From Sulfolobus sp. SCGC AB-777_G06 (GTDB lineage: Archaea; Thermoproteota; Thermoprotei_A; Sulfolobales; Sulfolobaceae): a stretch of 8,638 bases of DNA. Shown one piece after another: positions 942 through 8,638 of this stretch. A model generated the notes under the pieces. That model saw only the letters and a program-made list of their open reading frames with translations, was not told the origin of the DNA and did no database searches. The first letter of the stretch is position 1; each line of letters opens with the position of its first letter. A program made the translations under genes and the position numbers. The stretch spans positions 1 to 8,638 of the forward strand of contig QEFN01000037.1 of the NCBI GenBank assembly GCA_003086555.1, in the 5' to 3' direction.

Positions 942-1472
942 TTACTTCTAATTCCGCCACGGGCACCCCTCTTAAGGGATCATACACAGTCACCCTTAAG
1001 TCATTGGGGCTAGTCGAGGAAAACACCACTACCCTCCCATCCACCTTTCTTGCCAAGTTAAGAGGAGCAATAGAATCCCTCTCTAAAAGAACTTCACCAC
1101 CCTCCAAGTACCTAGCGTTCACCTTCAGTGCTTTTACACCCCCACCCTCGTGAGCTGTGCCCGTCATCAGGTAGGGGTTAAAAACTCTGATAACTCTCTC
1201 TCAACTACTTGCTTACCCTTCCTCAACTTCTCGCCGTTAAACGGGTTGATAGAGGAAGCGTAGGACTCAGAAATCTCCACGACGTCTATCGGCTGAGCTT
1301 TTAACATCTCCACAAATTTAACAACACTCCACTGGTGAATCCTATGCCTAAGCTTATCATTTTTATCACCCTCCATCTTCTCCTTGACTTTAGAGGAAAA
1401 CTTACCTACTACGACTTTAGCACCTAAGCTCCTAGCAAGCTCTGTTATCCTTTTTACAGTCTTCCTTAACAC
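910..1472 (-). pseudogene. Degenerate TnpB-like (IS605 OrfB-type) protein, frameshifted and N-terminally truncated
   Basis: Two overlapping minus-strand frames form one broken protein. The first frame (GTG at 1472, stop 1167-1169; open back to 1520) contains ELARSLGAKVVVGKF, IHQWSVVKFVEMLKAQPIDV, EISESYASSINPFNGEKL. It matches the second half of TnpB, where E-x-Y-T-S-x-x-C-P-x-C-G is expected. The second frame (stop 910-912) continues with NPYLMTGTAHEGGG and ERDSIAPLNLARK; the D and N of that last motif correspond to the RuvC-III segment D-x-x-G-x-x-N. The frame change lies in a GA repeat near 1198-1206: removing one GA restores a continuous reading. The zinc-finger cysteines are replaced (SINPFNGE), and the N-terminal half and first catalytic Asp are missing, so it cannot be an active nuclease. 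No partner tnpA or clear element ends are visible. Family assignment comes from motif memory, not a search. Confidence 0.65.
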
Positions 1473-1515
1473 GTCAGTAAATCTTAATAAGTTACTACCA
1501 TCCTTTAAATTTTTA

Positions 1516-1520
1516 AAAAG
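1516..1520 (-). terminator. Possible T-tract terminator after the CARF-PIN gene
   Basis: On the minus strand a run of five T follows about 23 bases after the TAA stop (1543-1545), within an AT-rich stretch. Archaeal RNA polymerase can terminate at short T runs without a hairpin. The tract is short, so this is a weak call. Confidence 0.3.
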
Positions 1521-1542
1521 TCAGAAAGTGCAGTCCTTGAAT

Positions 1543-2877
1543 TTACCTTACAATGTTCACATTGAACATCTTTCCGTATAACAAATCACATCTCAAATTT
1601 CTATCACGGATGCTTTCCGAAAGTTCTATTTCTACCTCAACATATTTCCCCTCTCTTTTGCCTCCTATAAGTGCCTTCACCTCACCCCTGGAGGAGTAAA
1701 TGATCATACCTATCATCTTAAATAATGAGTAAGTCCCTAAACTCCTCTCGTATTTCGACTCTACATAATCATAAGAGAGCGGTGGGTTTAAGGGTTTTGC
1801 TTGTCTCCAATTATTGACTTTTTCAATCACGTCATTATCCCTCGAGACCAAATACATTTTAGTGTGTAAATGTTTTAGGTACTCCTCTACAATTAAATTA
1901 TCGCAATATGTCTCCTTTGATTCAATCGGCAAAGACCTACCGAAATTAATTAATGACAAGTATTGGTGGTAAGCCAAACAAGCGAGCATCCTGACATTTA
2001 GGTTAGGGGGTTGTTGAGTACGGTTTAAGTCCGGGTTTACTTTACGGCTCAACTCGTTTCTGAGGCAGTCCGAAACGTAAATTATTGGTTCTTCGTCGTT
2101 CAGTAGCCTATAGGCGTCGACATCATAAAAGAAGTTGGTGTCAGGCAATAACGCTTTGCCCCTCAACTTGTCCTCAGTACCTTTGAACTTCACGGACTTC
2201 AACCCTACCATTGTTTCCAACTGATCAATAGAGGATCCCTTATTCAAATCCTTCAGTATTCTACTCATCTTTTTAGCTTCCTGAAAGTTGTCCTCATCGT
2301 CTAAATGTATAGTGAAATAATTCATGCTCACCCCCTCTCTGATGAACTGAAGGCTTAAGTCAGCATCATCGAAGTAGTTAACGACTGTGGATAAAGCTGA
2401 GAGGAAGTCGTGTCTTGAAGAAAACTTGTTAATTGAAGGGAGGGTCTCGGGTAATTTTTTTACGTAGGGGCGACTGAACTTAAATTCCATGTTATAACTC
2501 TCGAACTTCTGCAGCCATCTGGGGACTTCCGGATAGGCACTTTTAAAGTAGCCCGGCCCCTCTAAATAAGAAACTCCTTTCTTGTCACGGACTGCGATGA
2601 TAGAGAAAGCTGAGGCCATCTGCTTAGTGCCCCCCGTGATGTCTATAGCGTCACAGTCGAGCTTAAGCTTCAAGTTCTCCGAATACGATGAAGGAGAAAC
2701 GGTAATTATCTCGCTCTTAAGCCCCTCCACATTTTCTACGTACTGCTTAGTCTTATCTGTGACAAGGAAAACGACTTTCTCTAAATCAAAGTACTCCATA
2801 TAACGCCTGATTACTGAAAGGGCTGTGTCTTTAGTAGTGCCCACCGTGATACACAAACTCTTCACTTCCGTCCCCAA
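1543..2877 (-). CDS. CARF-PIN fusion protein, predicted cOA-activated ribonuclease
   Basis: A protein of 444 residues. The N-terminal part (about 5-110) is a CARF domain: a first strand with ITVGTTKD (residues 10-17), then DITGGTKQMA (79-88), the D-x-T-G-G-T-K signature that binds cyclic oligoadenylate. A middle linker (about 140-235) is followed by a PIN nuclease domain (about 242-360). Its acidic residues are all in place: D246 in LLPDTN, E275 in CLRNEL, D326 in YCDNL and D347 in SRDND. The expected role, known for this fold combination and inferred here, is RNA cleavage switched on by a second messenger made by type III Cas10 during infection. No Cas10 is in the window, so the signal would come from elsewhere. 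The start is TTG at 2877, with AGGTG five bases upstream; a GTG four codons downstream is an alternative. It has its own promoter, 465 bases downstream of cas6, so it is not part of that operon. Confidence 0.85.
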   Translation of the reverse strand: MGTEVKSLCITVGTTKDTALSVIRRYMEYFDLEKVVFLVTDKTKQYVENVEGLKSEIITVSPSSYSENLKLKLDCDAIDITGGTKQMASAFSIIAVRDKKGVSYLEGPGYFKSAYPEVPRWLQKFESYNMEFKFSRPYVKKLPETLPSINKFSSRHDFLSALSTVVNYFDDADLSLQFIREGVSMNYFTIHLDDEDNFQEAKKMSRILKDLNKGSSIDQLETMVGLKSVKFKGTEDKLRGKALLPDTNFFYDVDAYRLLNDEEPIIYVSDCLRNELSRKVNPDLNRTQQPPNLNVRMLACLAYHQYLSLINFGRSLPIESKETYCDNLIVEEYLKHLHTKMYLVSRDNDVIEKVNNWRQAKPLNPPLSYDYVESKYERSLGTYSLFKMIGMIIYSSRGEVKALIGGKREGKYVEVEIELSESIRDRNLRCDLLYGKMFNVNIVR

Positions 2878-2882
2878 AATCC

Positions 2883-2899
2883 CACCTAGTTAGTAGGTG
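2883..2899 (-). promoter_or_regulatory. Inverted repeat that covers the CARF-PIN Shine-Dalgarno sequence
   Basis: CACCTA and TAGGTG form perfect six-base arms around a five-base centre. On the minus strand the downstream arm contains the AGGTG that serves as ribosome-binding site for the TTG start at 2877. The predicted transcription start (about 2889-2891) falls inside the repeat. If the real start is a little upstream, the RNA would fold and hide its ribosome-binding site. Otherwise the palindrome is a candidate operator over the start site. Confidence 0.4.
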
Positions 2900-2911
2900 T
2901 AAGGCTCTAGG

Positions 2912-2919
2912 ATTAAAAA
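2912..2919 (-). promoter_or_regulatory. TATA box for the CARF-PIN gene
   Basis: The minus strand reads GTTTTTAAT here, centred about 39 bases upstream of the TTG start. The usual 26-27 base spacing puts transcription start near 2889-2891, leaving a leader of roughly 12 bases that is just long enough for the AGGTG ribosome-binding site. This differs from the leaderless cas8b promoter. Confidence 0.45.
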
Positions 2920-3342
2920 CTTTCTCGGATGATGACTTTGACTCCCCCGAGGGATAAGGCTTTTCGCCTCAATTTTTTGTAAACGTGGCGGGAATAATAG
3001 TTAAGGTATTTTACATCTTTGAAAAACCGCTAGCTCGGACAGAATACGAAGGATAACGCAATTGTAAGGACAAGATTTTGTCTTCAAGGTCGAGTAACCG
3101 TATTACCTAATAATAACCGCCCTTACTTATGACCCTCATCGAAAGGAGTTAGACCGATTTTCCGTCTCGTCACAAAAATCAGTTTTTTCACACAACGAAG
3201 AATATCGTCCTTATCAAGACTGAATGAAATATCTTAAACCGGCGTCCTGAACTGCGGTCCCCTCCGTTTCGACATACATTTACCGACGGAAGAGAAAGGA
3301 GGTCTCCGTCGGTTGTCGTCCTGAAAGGTCACTCTCCTACCT
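2920..3342. other. Intergenic region between cas6 and the CARF-PIN gene
   Basis: No coding frame of note exists on either strand: stops are frequent and no known motif appears. It contains a hairpin close behind cas6 (3282-3313), a direct repeat of GTCCTGAA (3244-3251 and 3317-3324) and several small AT-rich inverted repeats, such as GACAA-GATT-TTGTC near 3070. It separates the cas operon from a gene with its own promoter. I see no tRNA, CRISPR repeat or mobile-element end in it. Confidence 0.5.
3282..3313 (-). terminator. Hairpin downstream of cas6, possible operon end or RNA-stabilising structure
   Basis: ACCGACGGA (3282-3290) and TCCGTCGGT (3305-3313) are perfect nine-base arms around a 14-base loop. 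On the minus strand the hairpin lies about 30 bases after the cas6 stop, so it would be in the 3' end of the cas7-cas5-cas6 message. No T tract follows, so it is not a classical terminator. A 3'-end stabiliser or processing site is equally possible. Confidence 0.35.
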
Positions 3343-4086
3343 TCACTCCCCTAGCAAGTTCCTTAAGCTCGTCCCTTCGAACTCCAGCATCCCGAAACCT
3401 TGGCTGTTCTTCACCCCTAAACCAGCCTCATACGCCACCTTCAATGCAGTCAAAGTCCCGGTAAGTTTGAATTTACCCATTACTCCCTCTATCCTCGTAC
3501 GCTTATATTTCGTGACACTCCTCCTCCAGTTCTCTACCCTGACCTCCAAATCGGTCTTAAACACCTTACCGGTAAGAGCTAACACTTTCCTCTTCATGTT
3601 TAACTTGATTAAGTAATCGTACTCTAACTGGTGCGGGAACAGATATCTACTCCCTTCAGCCGTCCTCTTCGTTACTACGACGGGAGACAGTGTGTAAAAA
3701 AGCCCTTTCGAAGCTAGCTCCTTGTCGAAGTTCTTTACTAACATCTTATCTACGACGAACTTAGCCTTATCTATAACGAACTCTGGGTTACTGCTTAAAT
3801 ATTCATAAAGGTACTTGACTACTGTGTCTAACGCCGAGGAAAAAGCGAAATACACGAAGTCCCTATAAAGTAACCTTCCCTCATCTCTTCTATAATCTCC
3901 GTATATTCTAGAAAAGGTGAACATCTTAAACCTCCTAGGGCCCTCCTCGACGCCCATGTCGTGTAGGGACTTCCTAACTTTAGGAGGTAGGGCCTTGTAA
4001 AAGAAGGACTGTAAATAGTAGTTATAGTGAGCGTGTACGTAACCGCCCAAATACCTAGCCTTGATGTAGATCCTCACCGGCTTCAT
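3343..4086 (-). CDS. cas6: Cas6, CRISPR repeat-cleaving endoribonuclease
   Basis: A protein of 247 residues, normal for Cas6. It cuts the long CRISPR transcript within each repeat and usually stays on the 3' end of the crRNA. The N-terminal half has the Cas6 pattern YNYYLQSFFYKAL (21-33), then LHDMG and RRFKMFTFS (51-59). Comparison with Pyrococcus furiosus Cas6 suggests a catalytic set of Y30, H42 and K54. The C-terminus carries the glycine-rich RNA-binding loop GLGVKNSQGFGML (222-234). The expected product fits the array here: cleavage after the short stem of the minus-strand repeat leaves an eight-base CTTGAAAC handle. It is the last gene of cas7-cas5-cas6, six bases after the cas5 stop. 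GGAG abuts the ATG directly, which is tight; a GTG three codons downstream would have better spacing and would remove only three residues. Confidence 0.93.
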   Translation of the reverse strand: MKPVRIYIKARYLGGYVHAHYNYYLQSFFYKALPPKVRKSLHDMGVEEGPRRFKMFTFSRIYGDYRRDEGRLLYRDFVYFAFSSALDTVVKYLYEYLSSNPEFVIDKAKFVVDKMLVKNFDKELASKGLFYTLSPVVVTKRTAEGSRYLFPHQLEYDYLIKLNMKRKVLALTGKVFKTDLEVRVENWRRSVTKYKRTRIEGVMGKFKLTGTLTALKVAYEAGLGVKNSQGFGMLEFEGTSLRNLLGE

Positions 4087-4092
4087 CTCCGG

Positions 4093-4785
4093 CTAAAGGA
4101 AGACTAAGTGTTTATTACCGCACCTGACCCCCTCCGCTTCACCGCTTTTGACCTTCACTGCTGAGCCGTCGGAGGGAAAGAAGTAGTTGTGGAGCTTCCC
4201 CGACATCCTACCCTCCTCAAACCTCCGGGGCATACCGTATTCCAGCGTGATTACCGTCCCCGCCTCCACGCTAAAAGAAGCGGGTAATGCACCGTACACA
4301 CTCTTCCCTGAAAAGTCCTTCACTTCCTCGCACTCCTCCACTGAGACTTTCTCTATCCACCCCAGCATCTCGGCCGTGCCCAAGGCTAAGGGGTACTTAG
4401 GACTCTTAAATGCCTCCTCTATCTCCTTGTTGTAAGTCATGTACAGCCCGTAACCTAAAAAGTCGCCCTTAGATGCTACAATGAACTCCTTCGTTATCGG
4501 AACTCTGTTACCGACACCCCTAAATTTCTTTACGTTAACGGAGTCCGTATCGAGGTAGTTCTCCCCGAACACAAGTTTCTTCAAAGGTGTCAAAGCTTCG
4601 ATAGCGTAGTCCAAAGCGTCGAGTTCCTTATAGTAGGAATCCCTCTCCTTCCCGCTCACAGCTGCCACTATTCCCATGACGGTAGTCCTAGGCGGGAAAT
4701 AGTAAGAAAGGGAGGTCGAGTTGGTGAACACTTTCCTGAAATGAGCCATCCTACCGTAGATTTCGACGTAAAGAAGTTTTTTCAA
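4093..4785 (-). CDS. cas5: Cas5, type I-B (Cas5b/Cas5h) Cascade subunit
   Basis: A protein of 230 residues. In type I-B Cascade, Cas5 grips the 5' handle of the crRNA and contacts Cas8 and the first Cas7. The N-terminus shows the Cas5 signature: beta strand LLYVEIYG, then AHFRKVFTNSTSLSYYFPP (14-32) and RTTVMGIVAAVSG, the 'R-T-T-V-x-G' segment shared by Cas5h proteins. LALGTAEMLGWIE near residue 135 corresponds to the second conserved block. Catalytic activity is not expected, because a separate cas6 is present. The start is TTG at 4785, behind GAGG at a four-base spacing; the next ATG (residue 13) would delete the first strand of the fold, so TTG is preferred. It lies six bases from the cas7 stop and six from cas6, clearly one transcript. 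Confidence 0.93.
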   Translation of the reverse strand: MKKLLYVEIYGRMAHFRKVFTNSTSLSYYFPPRTTVMGIVAAVSGKERDSYYKELDALDYAIEALTPLKKLVFGENYLDTDSVNVKKFRGVGNRVPITKEFIVASKGDFLGYGLYMTYNKEIEEAFKSPKYPLALGTAEMLGWIEKVSVEECEEVKDFSGKSVYGALPASFSVEAGTVITLEYGMPRRFEEGRMSGKLHNYFFPSDGSAVKVKSGEAEGVRCGNKHLVFL

Positions 4786-4791
4786 AGCTCC

Positions 4792-5724
4792 TCACGGGAA
4801 CTTTACGTCCTTGTGCGGTAACTGTATTGAATTTAGCCCTATCAAGGGCTTGCAGATCTCGCTAAACTCCTCCGCACACCTCAGGTATACCGTACCCTTG
4901 TCCTTAAGCTTGTTAGCCAGTACTGAAAGGTCTATACTCAAGTCGTCTAAGTCCCTTACGTTCTCCTTCTTTTGCGTCACCTTAACGAACCTCCTCAGGT
5001 CACCTAAGAGCGTGTCAGGGTCTTTGTGCTCTAACCTCAAGTACAATAGGGGATAATGCCCTATCTTACTCCTCGTCACGCTCTCCTCCATGATTGCCTC
5101 CCACAAATAGTTGTCAAACACCTTCAGGTCCTTTTCCGTCACCATAGTCTCTTTCCCCCTCCTCCAACTGAACGCACCGTAGAAGGCAATAAGCGAGTAG
5201 TAAACCCTGTAGTCCTTCCCTATGTTACCCGCACCAGTATCCCTGCCAGAGAACAAAGACGTTATAGACCTAGTGTCCATCAGGTCTACTTTATGTAGAG
5301 AATAACCCCATGTCAGTTGCAAAGGTCCGGTATAAGAGATGGACTCGCCCTTTCCTTCGTCCTCTGACCCCTTTCCTTTAGACTTACCCTTCTTCGGTAT
5401 GGTAGCACCGAATAACCTTACGTCTATGCAAGAGCTAAGTACTTTAGAGGGGTCATTACCAAACATTTCCAGCCTTTCCGTAGCGTCTACGTGCTTTCCG
5501 CCAACTTTGGTTATCCACACGTAGTCGATACCGTGCTTCATGATCACGTAGTCCCTGAAGAACCTTTTTAGCCTCACGTCCGAAACGTAATTGGTCTTAG
5601 TCTTGTGGTCCATTCTGGGCCTGTTCTCATCGTCAGGGTCTCCGTTAGGGTTAGCGTTCTTCACTTCGTATATTATTAAGTACTCTGAATTAGTCTTCGG
5701 GGATACGGAACTACTTCCAGACAT
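4792..5724 (-). CDS. cas7: Cas7, type I-B (Csh2-like) Cascade backbone
   Basis: A protein of 310 residues, the usual size of Csh2/Cas7b. Several copies polymerise along the crRNA spacer to form the Cascade backbone. The signature NANPNGDPDDENRPRMD (23-39) and YVSDVRLKRFFRDY (46-59) is diagnostic of Cas7b. GPLQLTWGYSLHKVD (133-147), DTGAGNIGKDYRVYYSLIAFYG (162-183, split by the conserved G-x-D-x-R) and RSKIGHYPLLYLR (218-230) follow in family order. A lysine- and glycine-rich stretch (111-127) looks like a flexible, perhaps RNA-facing insertion. It is the first gene of the operon. A short out-of-frame ATG at 5734 precedes the real ATG and stops after seven codons. The promoter lies about 34 bases upstream, so the leader is only a few bases long and has no ribosome-binding site. 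Confidence 0.95.
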   Translation of the reverse strand: MSGSSSVSPKTNSEYLIIYEVKNANPNGDPDDENRPRMDHKTKTNYVSDVRLKRFFRDYVIMKHGIDYVWITKVGGKHVDATERLEMFGNDPSKVLSSCIDVRLFGATIPKKGKSKGKGSEDEGKGESISYTGPLQLTWGYSLHKVDLMDTRSITSLFSGRDTGAGNIGKDYRVYYSLIAFYGAFSWRRGKETMVTEKDLKVFDNYLWEAIMEESVTRSKIGHYPLLYLRLEHKDPDTLLGDLRRFVKVTQKKENVRDLDDLSIDLSVLANKLKDKGTVYLRCAEEFSEICKPLIGLNSIQLPHKDVKFP

Positions 5725-5779: not shown

Positions 5780-5796
5780 CCCCCCCCCCCCCCCCC
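5780..5796. repeat. Homopolymer tract of 17 C
   Basis: An uninterrupted run of 17 C on the plus strand (G on the minus strand). It sits in the divergent cas intergenic region, just upstream of the cas7 promoter. Such tracts change length by polymerase slippage, both in cells and in sequencing, so the exact count is uncertain. A long G run could also form a quadruplex. Confidence 0.9.
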
Positions 5797-6141: not shown

Positions 6142-6150
6142 CTTTATTTA
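6142..6150 (+). promoter_or_regulatory. TATA box for leaderless cas8b transcription
   Basis: TTTATTTA, preceded by an A-rich BRE-like stretch (ATTAAAAATC), is centred 26-27 bases upstream of the cas8b ATG at 6173. This predicts transcription starting at the ATG. No Shine-Dalgarno sequence precedes the start. Confidence 0.65.
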
Positions 6151-6172: not shown

Positions 6173-7909
6173 ATGTTTAACTCTATTTTAAGGATAGGAG
6201 AACTTTTGAACAAAGAAGGAGGAAGCGATTATAAATTACCTATAGAGAAAGTGAAATCGAAAGACGCTAAACTATGTTTCGTAGTCTTTGACATCGGGAA
6301 GAAGAAAGTATACATGGACAAACAGAAACTGGTTGAGGGAGACGAAGAGAAATACGCTTACATAGGTAACGCTAAGGCTCAGAAACCCCAAGACAGACTC
6401 ACTACCGATTCGCTAAAGTACATTATAGGGCGTGACGAAAACGGCGAGAGAGTACCAAACAACAAGTTCTCCCTAAAAGTAGTAGCGGATAAGCTTAAGG
6501 ACAGTAAGACGGGCAAACTTCTAAAAGAAGTCTTAGAGTGGTATACACCAGAAACGGAAATAGAGGGACTGGACTGGGACTGCGACTTGTACACCGTGAG
6601 GGTGGTGACTAAGGAAGAGGAGAAAATAGACTTAGCCACTTTAGAAGACTACCGACGCTCCTTAGTAGAAGCTAAGGGCGTCGTGAAAGGTAAGTGCCAG
6701 TTCTGCGGGACCGAAGGGGTTCTACCCAACCCCGACTACACCGGGGGGAGTTTGCTGAAGGTCTTCATCACGGACAAAAAAGGCTTCCTCTCAGACTTCG
6801 GTGAAGTGTTGTACTCCCACTCGGTCTGTCCCTCTTGCAGGAACAAATTGGAGCTCGGCAGGAGCTACGTAGAGCAGAACCTGACAGCCAGAGTGGGTAA
6901 ACTCAACGTGTACATAGTCCCGGACATACCCGGGAAGGCCGAGAAGACGTTCTTGGACATGTTCAAAGCGAACAAAGAGGGGTACATCTTGGAAGGCCTC
7001 AGGGAGGTAGAGAGGGGGGAGAGAGAAGCGTTAGAAATAATGGAATTTGAAGGAGTAGAAGTGAGGCTGGACTTAGTCTTTGGACAAAAGGAACAAAACA
7101 AGTTCAGGCTGTGGAGGGTAATACCCGAAGTAGGAGTCCCCAGGTTAGTAGAGATCATGAAACTGGCGGGGAAGGGCAAAAGGTTAGTATCGGGTAACAA
7201 CAAGATACCCTTGCAGGACATCTCTTTCCAAACACTTTACGGAGTCTTACCGGTAAGGGATTCCGGTAGAGGAATAGAACCTAAGGTCTTCTTGGACTTC
7301 CTCGAAGCCCTCCTACTGGGTAACAAACTAGACCAGAGCTATGTTTACGGGTCTTTCGTCTCCGTAGCGAGGTGTGTGAGGTACGGTACTTGTGAAAACA
7401 GTTTAACTAGATTCACGTTGGAGGACTTACCGTTATACCAAGAAATATTTATATATGTTATGAAGGAAATTGGGATTATGGGAGAGAAGACAGGACAACA
7501 GAAGGAAACGAACCTAGATACCCCGCTGGGCTATGCAGACAGCCTGGGACTAAAAGGTGGCCTTAAAGGGCTATTCCTTTTAGGTGTTCTAACGGCGTAT
7601 GTGGGTAAAGAACAGTACAATAAAGGAGACGAAAAGAAGGCGATACTAAATAGGATCGATTACGAAGGGATGGACATAGACGACGTGGTAGCATTTGCGA
7701 ACAGGTTACACGAGTCACTGAGGGATTACAGACAGCTGAACTCTGTTACAGAGTCGTTGTTCGCCGAGGCGTTAGACTTGATAAAGAGAAACCCCAACGA
7801 CTTGTGGGACACACAATCAAACGTCTTCCACATCTTGTTAGGCTACTCTTACCAGACCAAGATGTTCATTCAACACGCTAAGGGCGGTACTAAGGAGAGC
7901 AACGAATAA
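6173..7909 (+). CDS. cas8b: Cas8b (Csh1/TM1802-like), large subunit of type I-B Cascade
   Basis: A protein of 578 residues. Cas8b reads the PAM next to the target and recruits Cas3. The N-terminus (MFNSILRIGELL, then KLCFVVFDI) follows the Csh1/TM1802 layout. A four-cysteine zinc site is present: C175-x-x-C178 and C219-x-x-C222, with a spacing of about 40 residues, as in that family. The C-terminal 140 residues look helical (for example YEGMDIDDVVAFANRLHESL cut at 661-680 of the codon count is not implied; see 7478-7909) and match the position of the Cas11-like small-subunit domain. It is transcribed away from cas7-cas5-cas6, from a leaderless promoter, and ends 194 bases before the array. 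In most I-B loci cas8b is in the same operon as cas7 and cas5, so the divergence is unusual. Family level is certain enough from gene context plus zinc site; the exact subfamily was not searched. Confidence 0.87.
   Translation: MFNSILRIGELLNKEGGSDYKLPIEKVKSKDAKLCFVVFDIGKKKVYMDKQKLVEGDEEKYAYIGNAKAQKPQDRLTTDSLKYIIGRDENGERVPNNKFSLKVVADKLKDSKTGKLLKEVLEWYTPETEIEGLDWDCDLYTVRVVTKEEEKIDLATLEDYRRSLVEAKGVVKGKCQFCGTEGVLPNPDYTGGSLLKVFITDKKGFLSDFGEVLYSHSVCPSCRNKLELGRSYVEQNLTARVGKLNVYIVPDIPGKAEKTFLDMFKANKEGYILEGLREVERGEREALEIMEFEGVEVRLDLVFGQKEQNKFRLWRVIPEVGVPRLVEIMKLAGKGKRLVSGNNKIPLQDISFQTLYGVLPVRDSGRGIEPKVFLDFLEALLLGNKLDQSYVYGSFVSVARCVRYGTCENSLTRFTLEDLPLYQEIFIYVMKEIGIMGEKTGQQKETNLDTPLGYADSLGLKGGLKGLFLLGVLTAYVGKEQYNKGDEKKAILNRIDYEGMDIDDVVAFANRLHESLRDYRQLNSVTESLFAEALDLIKRNPNDLWDTQSNVFHILLGYSYQTKMFIQHAKGGTKESNE
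7444..7456 (+). promoter_or_regulatory. Internal TATA box and BRE inside cas8b, candidate cas11 promoter
   Basis: AAGAAA (BRE-like) runs directly into TATTTATATAT. The TTTATATAT core (7448-7456) is centred about 26 bases upstream of an in-frame ATG at 7478, the same geometry as the cas8b promoter. The codons here (ATA TTT ATA TAT GTT, then ATT twice) are AT-richer than the surrounding gene, which mostly uses TTC and TAC. This suggests the promoter sequence is being maintained. Confidence 0.5.
7478..7909 (+). CDS. cas11: Candidate Cas11 small subunit, expressed from within cas8b
   Basis: In-frame with cas8b, starting at its codon 436 and sharing its stop: 143 residues, the size range of Cas11. 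It is known for type I-B, I-C and I-D systems that the small subunit is made separately from the 3' end of the large-subunit gene, usually by internal translation initiation. Here the ATG has no good ribosome-binding site (only GGA about 12 bases upstream) but has a TATA box 26 bases upstream, so a separate leaderless transcript is more likely. The sequence is rich in predicted helix: GLKGGLKGLFLLGVLTAYVG, then IDDVVAFANRLHESL, TESLFAEALDLIKR and VFHILLGYSYQTKMF. That fits the all-helical Cas11 fold, whose copies line the non-target-strand side of Cascade. An in-frame ATG at 7460 is a less well placed alternative start. Existence of the product is inferred. Confidence 0.5.
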   Translation: MGEKTGQQKETNLDTPLGYADSLGLKGGLKGLFLLGVLTAYVGKEQYNKGDEKKAILNRIDYEGMDIDDVVAFANRLHESLRDYRQLNSVTESLFAEALDLIKRNPNDLWDTQSNVFHILLGYSYQTKMFIQHAKGGTKESNE

Positions 7910-8103: not shown

Positions 8104-8638
8104 GTTTCAAGTCCCCAAGGGAATGCTACAAACATCCAGAAACAGGGCGTTTGAAACAGAGGGTTTACTGTTTCAAGTCCCCAAGGGAATGCTACAAACG
8201 TTTTCATAATAATCGTAATATTGGTGGTGGTGAGGGTTTCAAGTCCCCAAGGGAATGCTACAAACTGTATTGAACGTATACGCTAGTTTTTACAGAAGTT
8301 TCATGTTTCAAGTCCCCAAGGGAATGCTACAAACACGCATACCTACTCTCGTTTTGCCACTGGAGTAACCAATGTTTCAAGTCCCCAAGGGAATGCTACA
8401 AACCTACAAACAAGCATACCAATGGATTTATTGAAAGTCCAGCTCCAGGTTTCAAGTCCCCAAGGGAATGCTACAAACAATACTACGTAACTTCCGTGAT
8501 TTGTGACGGTGAACTGTTTCAAGTCCCCAAGGGAATGCTACAAACGCGTTATATATAAAGCAGTGCACATTTTGGCATATGAGGTTTCAAGTCCCCAAGG
8601 GAATGCTACAAACGCGTTATATATAAAGCAGTGCACAT
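8104..8638 (-). CRISPR. CRISPR array, eight 30-base repeats, continuing past the right edge
   Basis: Eight identical repeats start at 8104, 8170, 8236, 8305, 8374, 8449, 8516 and 8584. Each begins GTTTCAAGTCCCC and ends GAATGCTACAAAC on the plus strand. The seven complete spacers are 36, 36, 39, 39, 45, 37 and 38 bases long. The eighth (from 8614) is cut by the window edge and repeats the first 25 bases of spacer 7. On the minus strand the repeat ends in CTTGAAAC, like the common archaeal ATTGAAAC handle, and forms a TCCC-TTG-GGGA hairpin exactly in front of it. The crRNA is therefore probably transcribed leftwards, and the leader lies beyond 8638. The end beside cas8b would then be the oldest, although its last repeat is intact. 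Repeat type and neighbouring genes both fit I-B. Confidence 0.97.

Follow-up and report, generated by a model that had tools for sequence, protein, structure and literature searches.

A candidate promoter within cas8b for a leaderless cas11b mRNA in a Sulfolobales clade with type I-B CRISPR-Cas systems

The cas8b gene and its internal element

The stretch of DNA analysed here, called the window below, comprises positions 1 to 8,638 of contig QEFN01000037.1 from Sulfolobus sp. SCGC AB-777_G06 (8,638 nucleotides) and carries a type I-B CRISPR-Cas (clustered regularly interspaced short palindromic repeats and associated proteins) locus. The large-subunit gene of this locus, cas8b, contains a TATA box, a stretch resembling a B recognition element (BRE) and an in-frame ATG, which together may form an intragenic promoter and start for the small subunit Cas11b. 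The gene and the parts of the internal element are the following:

6143-6148, plus strand: TATA box of cas8b itself, TTTATT, promoter score 7.29
6173-7909, plus strand: cas8b, large subunit of the TM1802/Csh1 family, 578 amino acids (578 codons), PF09484 E 3.8e-65, PADLOC Cas8b E 4.4e-64
7442-7447, plus strand: BRE-like GAAATA of the putative internal promoter, with a synonymous AT excess (z 3.8) at codon -12
7448-7456, plus strand: internal TATA box TTTATATAT, encoding F426-I427-Y428
7466-7474, plus strand: AT-enriched stretch, presumably the promoter-proximal or melting region, with a synonymous AT excess in nine genes (codons -4 to -2, z 2.2-3.0)
7478-7909, plus strand: internal ATG (M436) and Cas11b reading frame, 143 amino acids plus stop, predicted transcription start site at or near 7478

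In a profile search the window Cas8b matches PF09484 across residues 1-560, i.e., over the full length of the family, and the I-B neighbours Cas7/Csh2, Cas5b and Cas6 adjoin it, so that both family and neighbourhood are those of a type I-B large subunit. The NCBIfam models TIGR02556 and TIGR02591 match as well, both under their curated cut-offs, and the nearest database protein is that of Stygiolobus sp. CP8521M with 98% identity. The top PDB matches of an AlphaFold model of Cas8b are type I-C Cascade chains, which are taken to be Cas8. A sequence search of the PDB with Cas8b returned zero matches, and one with a Cas11 profile a single weak match (C6HR1_4r, E 0.015).

The M436 ATG (7478-7480) is codon 436 of the 578-codon cas8b and is in frame. 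The first T of the internal box lies 30 nt before the A of this ATG, and the first T of the box of cas8b itself (6143-6148) lies equally 30 nt before the cas8b ATG at 6173. The original prediction, made from the letters of the window alone, had described the TATA box, the BRE-like stretch and the in-frame ATG with a product of 143 residues, and had stated that the spacing equals that of the leaderless cas8b promoter; its coordinates and the equality of the spacing hold. It gave the distance as about 26 bases, which fits the centre of the box, while the first T sits 30 nt before the ATG. It had furthermore ascribed to the product the size and the helical look of Cas11, in agreement with the structure model, in which the 143 residues are predicted to form a compact alpha-helical bundle resembling type I-C Cascade chains, like a Cas11 domain.

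Homologue set

A search at the level of the order returned matches in 9 of 214 genomes, and the eight close ones (L010-L017) together with the window constitute the set of nine genes used below, which form about four sequence clusters. Left out of it was the divergent G139/L018, with 30% identity and ATA at the M436 column. Among profile scans of contigs for Cas8b the first gave none and the second, run with an alignment, gave L001-L009. Genome searches at class and phylum level yielded divergent relatives only, and a Cas8b protein search of plasmids, phages and viral contigs found none. The codon data rest on genes with DNA; P0001, P0002, P0004, P0005, P0007-P0010, P0012 and P0014-P0024 enter as protein only, and L008, L019, L024, L025, L098 and L099 stand outside the shuffle tests.

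The promoter score against chance

As background for TTTAWA spacing and for a promoter matrix served 400 kb of the close relative G198, in which 332 genes were crudely called. There, the frequency of TTTAWA peaks at 28-30 nt upstream of putative starts; it occupies this place before 27 of 322 starts versus 6 of 1289 internal in-frame ATGs. The matrix has 14 BRE/TATA columns and was trained on 262 G198 starts, with training DNA that did not include cas8b. The M436 promoter of the window scores 8.0, compared with a median of 2.2 and a 95th percentile of 7.6 for the G198 starts, and none of 1204 internal ATGs in G198 reaches this value. Of the eight in-frame ATGs that the window cas8b has beyond codon 20, M436 scores highest, and it is the best-scoring in-frame ATG in all nine genes, some ATGs of L017 that adjoin N being unscorable by the matrix. 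Among the 1204 internal ATGs, the proportion scoring at least as high as M436 is 0 for the window, L010, L011 and L013, 0.0008 in L016, 0.0025 in L012, 0.0042 in L015 and L017 and 0.0166 in L014. The conserved M500 has a negative promoter score in all eight genes scored, and the start of cas8b itself scores at least 2.8 in seven of eight genes read. What characterises a leaderless archaeal promoter, i.e., TATA and BRE at leaderless spacing, is thus present, with the first T at -30 in 9/9 genes. M430 (7460) was tried as a start and rejected; it is M in 14 of 25 proteins and is missing from five of the nine genes.

Conservation beyond the protein

Homologue alignment had been named with the original prediction as a check, and in it TATA box and ATG do not drift freely: the M436 ATG is kept in 9/9 genes, TTTATW stands at -30 in 9/9, codon 426 (Phe) is TTT in 9/9 and codon 427 (Ile) is ATA in 8/9 (P 7e-3). 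In each of the nine genes the 3' end of cas8b hence codes in frame for a putative Cas11b with ATG 436 as its own candidate start codon. Across an alignment of 25 proteins the M436 column holds M in 18, V in five and I in two. TTT at codon 426 is constant although eight of the nine genes prefer TTC (18 TTC versus 6 TTT in the window, 11 versus 13 in L016), and TTC predominates in five of the six remaining invariant Phe columns, the sixth holding 5 TTT and 4 TTC. Given the codon usage of each gene, TTT426 has P 1.7e-6, the lowest among 126 columns, with 7e-4 for the runner-up.

In a synonymous shuffle the 19 codons before M436 were redrawn in the nine genes and the promoter scores were summed. 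The observed sum was 54.0 versus 0.1 for the null; two runs gave z values of 6.4 and 6.6, and not a single draw was as high. With one gene per cluster, 0/4000 shuffles attained the observed sum in each of 16 combinations. Synonymous codon identity between clusters (six pairs) is 0.38-0.53 versus 0.36-0.45 expected and, since this is barely above expectation, the clusters are close to independent.

Resolved by codon over the nine genes, the synonymous AT excess peaks at -30 (z 5.5, codon -10) and at -36 (z 3.8); it rises again, though less, between -12 and -6 (z 2.2-3.0). This profile looks like the layout of TATA box, BRE and melting region in an archaeal promoter. General AT richness was set aside as an explanation, as the enrichment peaks at -30 and -36; a broad component persists on both sides of the ATG.

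Some observations concern the M436 column and its surroundings in more distant proteins. P0015-P0017, P0019 and P0020, a group in which one protein bears the label Nitrososphaeria, have Val there, and the Val codons could be GTG starts. L019 and L023, a divergent archaeal cas8b pair from one genome, carry TATA-like stretches upstream of GTG codons, at codon 472 in L019 (TATA 5.5, Shine-Dalgarno -5.4) and at codon 473 in L023 (TATA 4.8).

Shine-Dalgarno sequences in the clade and in relatives

Before M436 the Shine-Dalgarno (SD) strength is below the shuffle expectation (z -2.1, nine genes), and the duplex energies over a wide search range are -3.3 kcal/mol or weaker in eight of the nine. L017 reaches -8.0 over this range with a GGTG that is 18 nt away from the ATG; its value in a spacing-limited range is 0.3. 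An SD sequence for M436 was accordingly rejected, none being present at usable spacing in the nine genes.

In the bacterial relatives L005, L006 and L007 an in-frame ATG is preceded at 7-10 nt by GGTGA, the surrounding sequence being GGGGGTGA or GGAGGTGA, and their SD shuffle gives z 3.9. AAGGAGGT precedes an ATG in L099 (Deferribacter), and GGGGAGG in L098 (Thermus). The archaeal relatives L018, L020 and L023 have a plausible SD with an ATG nearby, with a shuffle z of 1.4 that is not significant.

In the same order as the window, cas10d of type I-D was read in seven genes (L078-L084), taken from 7 of 30 genomes with a match to Csc2 (PF18320) that were chosen for long contigs and larger genomes. 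TIGR03174 had yielded no cas10d match among 211 genomes and none among 14 control genomes either, and was hence uninformative, so that Csc2 was used instead. Two Met columns in the C-terminal part of Cas10d are invariant (736 and 795), of which 795 was taken for its SD, 736 having none. The SD upstream of Met 795 has energies of -6.4 to -12.2, weakest in L083, and a shuffle z of 4.2; Met 795 is likely the start of Cas11d. T-rich boxes at -33/-34 occur in four of the seven cas10d genes with scores of 3.3-6.0, hence type I-D is no pure negative for TATA. SD likewise guided the choice of the starts of L005-L007, L018, L020, L023, L098 and L099, and consequently the SD values of all controls lean upward.

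The haloarchaeal sample consists of eight regions from 66 plasmid records with a Cas7 match, H. volcanii itself not being among the seven genes aligned; L095, where cas8b and cas7 lie in one frame, was left out. An internal Met at one column is kept in six of the seven with a weak SD, and the best A/T count in any eight bases near the place of the TATA box is only 4-6 of 8. The L095 frame itself (1356-4520, Natrinema thermotolerans plasmid) is a single open cas8b-cas7 frame of 1054 amino acids without a stop, annotated as cas7b.

Gene order and neighbouring genes

Beside cas8b the window holds the following features:

4792-5724, minus strand: cas7 (Csh2), TIGR02590 E 4.1e-56, divergent from cas8b
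4093-4785, minus strand: cas5, PF09704 above cut-off, TIGR02592 under cut-off
3343-4086, minus strand: cas6, TIGR01877 E 1.5e-34
8104-8638 (window end), strand not assigned: CRISPR array, eight repeats of 30 nt

Gene order was read in eight loci; L017, on a short contig, was left out. In six of the eight cas7-cas5 follows cas8b in the same direction, and in the window and in S. caldivivus the two are divergent from it. The cas7 genes of L002, L087, L088 and L089 have an SD-led start (duplex -6.7 to -12.1), and the TATA scores there are below zero; in L002 a GTG with a TATA at -26 (score 3.5) is a second possible start. A separate TATA box precedes the cas7 of HS-7 at -30 (score 8.1), and Sulfodiicoccus cas7 has a TATA at -27 of an alternative TTG start (score 3.8). 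The Sulfodiicoccus cas5 (L086 8210-7567, minus strand) matches in two overlapping pieces, perhaps owing to a frameshift.

In S. caldivivus no same-strand gene was found 3' of cas8b within 8.5 kb, the sole same-strand ATG frames of at least 110 amino acids being two CRISPR-repeat frames; the next downstream ATG frame of at least 110 amino acids (209 amino acids) lies about 1.2 kb away on the opposite strand. The internal box is nevertheless retained with a score of 8.0. Since the box is kept there without a same-strand gene downstream, Cas11b is indicated as its purpose, and in S. caldivivus the element seems to serve Cas11b.

The CRISPR array of the window probably reads leftward, toward cas8b, an orientation that we take from typical repeats. 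The internal element as a promoter of the array was set aside, as the array probably converges on cas8b. At 8546-8638 the spacers after repeats 7 and 8 are, by eye, identical over the first 25 letters, which is all that is present of the latter; either a repeat-spacer unit was duplicated or this is an assembly effect at the contig end.

The I-B operon is adjoined by a gene for a 444-amino-acid protein (1543-2877, minus strand) with weak matches to CARF_PIN (PADLOC E 4.2e-7) and to Csx1/Csm6 models, which makes it a possible CARF-PIN nuclease. Next to this CARF-like gene lies the remnant of an IS200/IS605 TnpB-type gene (1167-1472, minus strand, TIGR01766 E 2.1e-16). No cas3 was seen within the window. 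S. caldivivus has, in the place of the CARF-like gene, a frame of 748 amino acids after cas6 with an HD-like motif recognised by eye (L085 2820-5066, minus strand). Long C runs are found in the window at about 5780-5796 between cas7 and cas8b and in S. caldivivus (L085) directly 3' of cas8b.

Discussion

We consider it probable that an intragenic promoter yields a leaderless cas11b mRNA in this thermoacidophilic Sulfolobales type I-B clade. The original prediction had proposed an internal promoter in place of an internal ribosome-binding site, a proposal that the codon-level conservation at -30 and the missing SD support at the level of sequence. A second, intragenic archaeal promoter inside cas8b would then make Cas11b. 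Its BRE and TATA box (7442-7456), lying in what appear to be codons of the helix that immediately precedes the Cas8b C-terminal domain, would allow TBP and TFB to position RNA polymerase, with transcription starting at A7478 or within 1-2 bases of it. The resulting mRNA would be leaderless with AUG 436 as its first codon, and leaderless initiation would produce a separate protein of 143 residues, identical to the C-terminal domain of Cas8b, that may enter Cascade in several copies and at a dosage independent of Cas8b. Published work, cited here and below from extracts of the papers, reports that 73% of the mRNAs of S. solfataricus are leaderless (PMC11698992) and that a bacterial I-B Cascade contains three copies of Cas11b (PMC11096372).

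Cas11b might instead arise by translation without SD at AUG 436 of the long cas8b mRNA, with TTTATA being incidental or keeping the start unstructured. The Cas11b of Haloferax, starting from Met545, was reported as a product of in-frame internal translation (PMC11899642), the haloarchaeal genes keep an internal Met with weak SD and an A/T-poor TATA place, and the AT enrichment around M436 is partly broad. However, selection is sharpest at -30 and -36 and not adjoining the ATG, SD strength is under expectation before M436, and SD sequences are present at the cas7 starts of four loci and in I-D cas10d, which makes this explanation unlikely. A real internal promoter could also have the transcription of the downstream cas7-cas5 as its purpose and Cas11b as a by-product. 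This would suit the six codirectional cas8b-cas7-cas5 loci, four of which have an SD-led cas7 start and no TATA in register. Yet the box holds the exact leaderless spacing to the very ATG that is kept in 9/9 genes, and both the window and S. caldivivus, whose cas7-cas5-cas6 lies on the opposite strand, retain it with a score of 8.0; we regard it as highly improbable that Cas11b is only a by-product.

Very unlikely, too, is the absence of any functional internal start, with TTTATA and M436 being a coincidence that results from Phe-Ile-Met at the end of a helix, and with the C-terminal domain active only within Cas8b or as a proteolytic fragment. Phe426 and Ile427 are indeed conserved amino acids, and a Cas8b fragment was once taken as fragmentation (Richter 2017, cited in the extracts of PMC11899642), but the codon-level conservation of TTT (P 1.7e-6) and the shuffle z of 6.6 are unexplained by the protein, and divergent relatives have I, V or L in place of M436.

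Several results weigh against an intragenic promoter for Cas11b or weaken the evidence for it. Scores are weaker in L012 and L014-L017, with single-gene shuffle P of 0.03-0.10, and the start of cas8b itself in L016 scores -2.4, hence the matrix misses some promoters; nor does it give a clear cas7 promoter at the start read in the window (-2.4) or S. caldivivus (-0.1). As Phe and Ile are conserved as amino acids, the protein dictates part of the box. L013 carries ATT instead of ATA at codon 427, and the divergent relatives L018, L019, L020 and L023 are without the M436 ATG. Codons within clusters are not independent (identity 0.38-0.58 versus 0.37-0.46 expected, some pairs up to 0.58 versus 0.44), and in a harsh test with one draw per cluster and the most generous codon frequency P becomes 0.006 for TTT and 0.03 for ATA. 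AT also rises directly 3' of the ATG (up to z 3.2 at codon +3) and, to a smaller extent, at -45 (2.3). The contrast in SD is softened by the SD-guided choice of the control starts, and the bacterial genes are also relatively enriched in TATA (z 3.3, with negative absolute scores), as is I-D cas10d (z 2.2). Finally, in six of the eight loci the internal promoter may feed cas7-cas5 as well, through a cas11b-cas7-cas5 mRNA.

Cas11 of types I-B, I-C or I-D was described as a product of internal translation or of an internal ribosome-binding site (PMC11899642, PMC11096372, PMC13199841, PMC10212523, PMC7694759). The nearest comparison is the archaeal I-B system of Haloferax volcanii, where Cas11b likewise corresponds to the C-terminal portion of Cas8b and begins at an internal ATG (Met545); unlike the present case it was ascribed to internal translation, with GGATG as a weak SD-like sequence (PMC11899642), and the seven other haloarchaeal genes analysed here are without a TATA-like box. 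The evidence consisted of FLAG fusions, mass spectrometry and a Met545Ala change (PMC11899642), which by our own reading would equally abolish the product of an internal promoter; the extracts of that paper report no internal-promoter test for Haloferax cas8b. Bacterial I-B and I-C and cyanobacterial I-D Cas11 share with the system described here the encoding of two proteins by one gene, the small helical subunit and the large subunit with a C-terminal small-subunit domain (PMC11096372, PMC13199841, PMC10212523); they differ in being described as products of internal translation, for which PMC11096372 names an internal ribosome-binding site. The bacterial relatives analysed here have GGTGA or GGAGG before the in-frame ATG, whereas the Sulfolobales clade has no SD and a TATA box instead. 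Type I-D cas10d of the same order resembles it in the internal Met of the C-terminal part (7/7) and is unlike it in that an internal SD (AGGTG/GGGTG-type, weak in L083) is under synonymous selection. Outside CRISPR systems, Shigella virF produces a leaderless mRNA for an N-terminally shortened protein, with "internal promoter" among the terms of the paper, although it is a bacterial regulator gene with another type of promoter (PMC5101355). In the open-licence PMC literature no report of Cas11 from an internal or intragenic promoter or from a leaderless mRNA was found among the matches listed.

A wider account, to which we give an even chance, is that nested transcription operates throughout the clade: the promoter dual-coded in cas8b would give rise to a leaderless cas11b mRNA, often a cas11b-cas7-cas5 mRNA, that sets the stoichiometry of Cascade and uncouples the multi-copy subunits from the single-copy Cas8b, replacing the internal ribosome-binding site on which bacterial relatives and I-D cas10d of the same order appear to rely. 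The current account of Cas11 produced from within the large-subunit gene is internal translation, whereas here a promoter located in conserved codons seems to be responsible. If this is true, the ratio of Cas11 to Cas8b would be a transcriptional setting open to regulation, a protein would be missing from gene annotation, and codon optimisation of such a cas8b gene would remove promoter and subunit alike. The dual-coded TATA boxes of this clade would provide a clean test case, and they are a reason to re-examine archaeal Cas11 proteins ascribed to internal translation for internal promoters.

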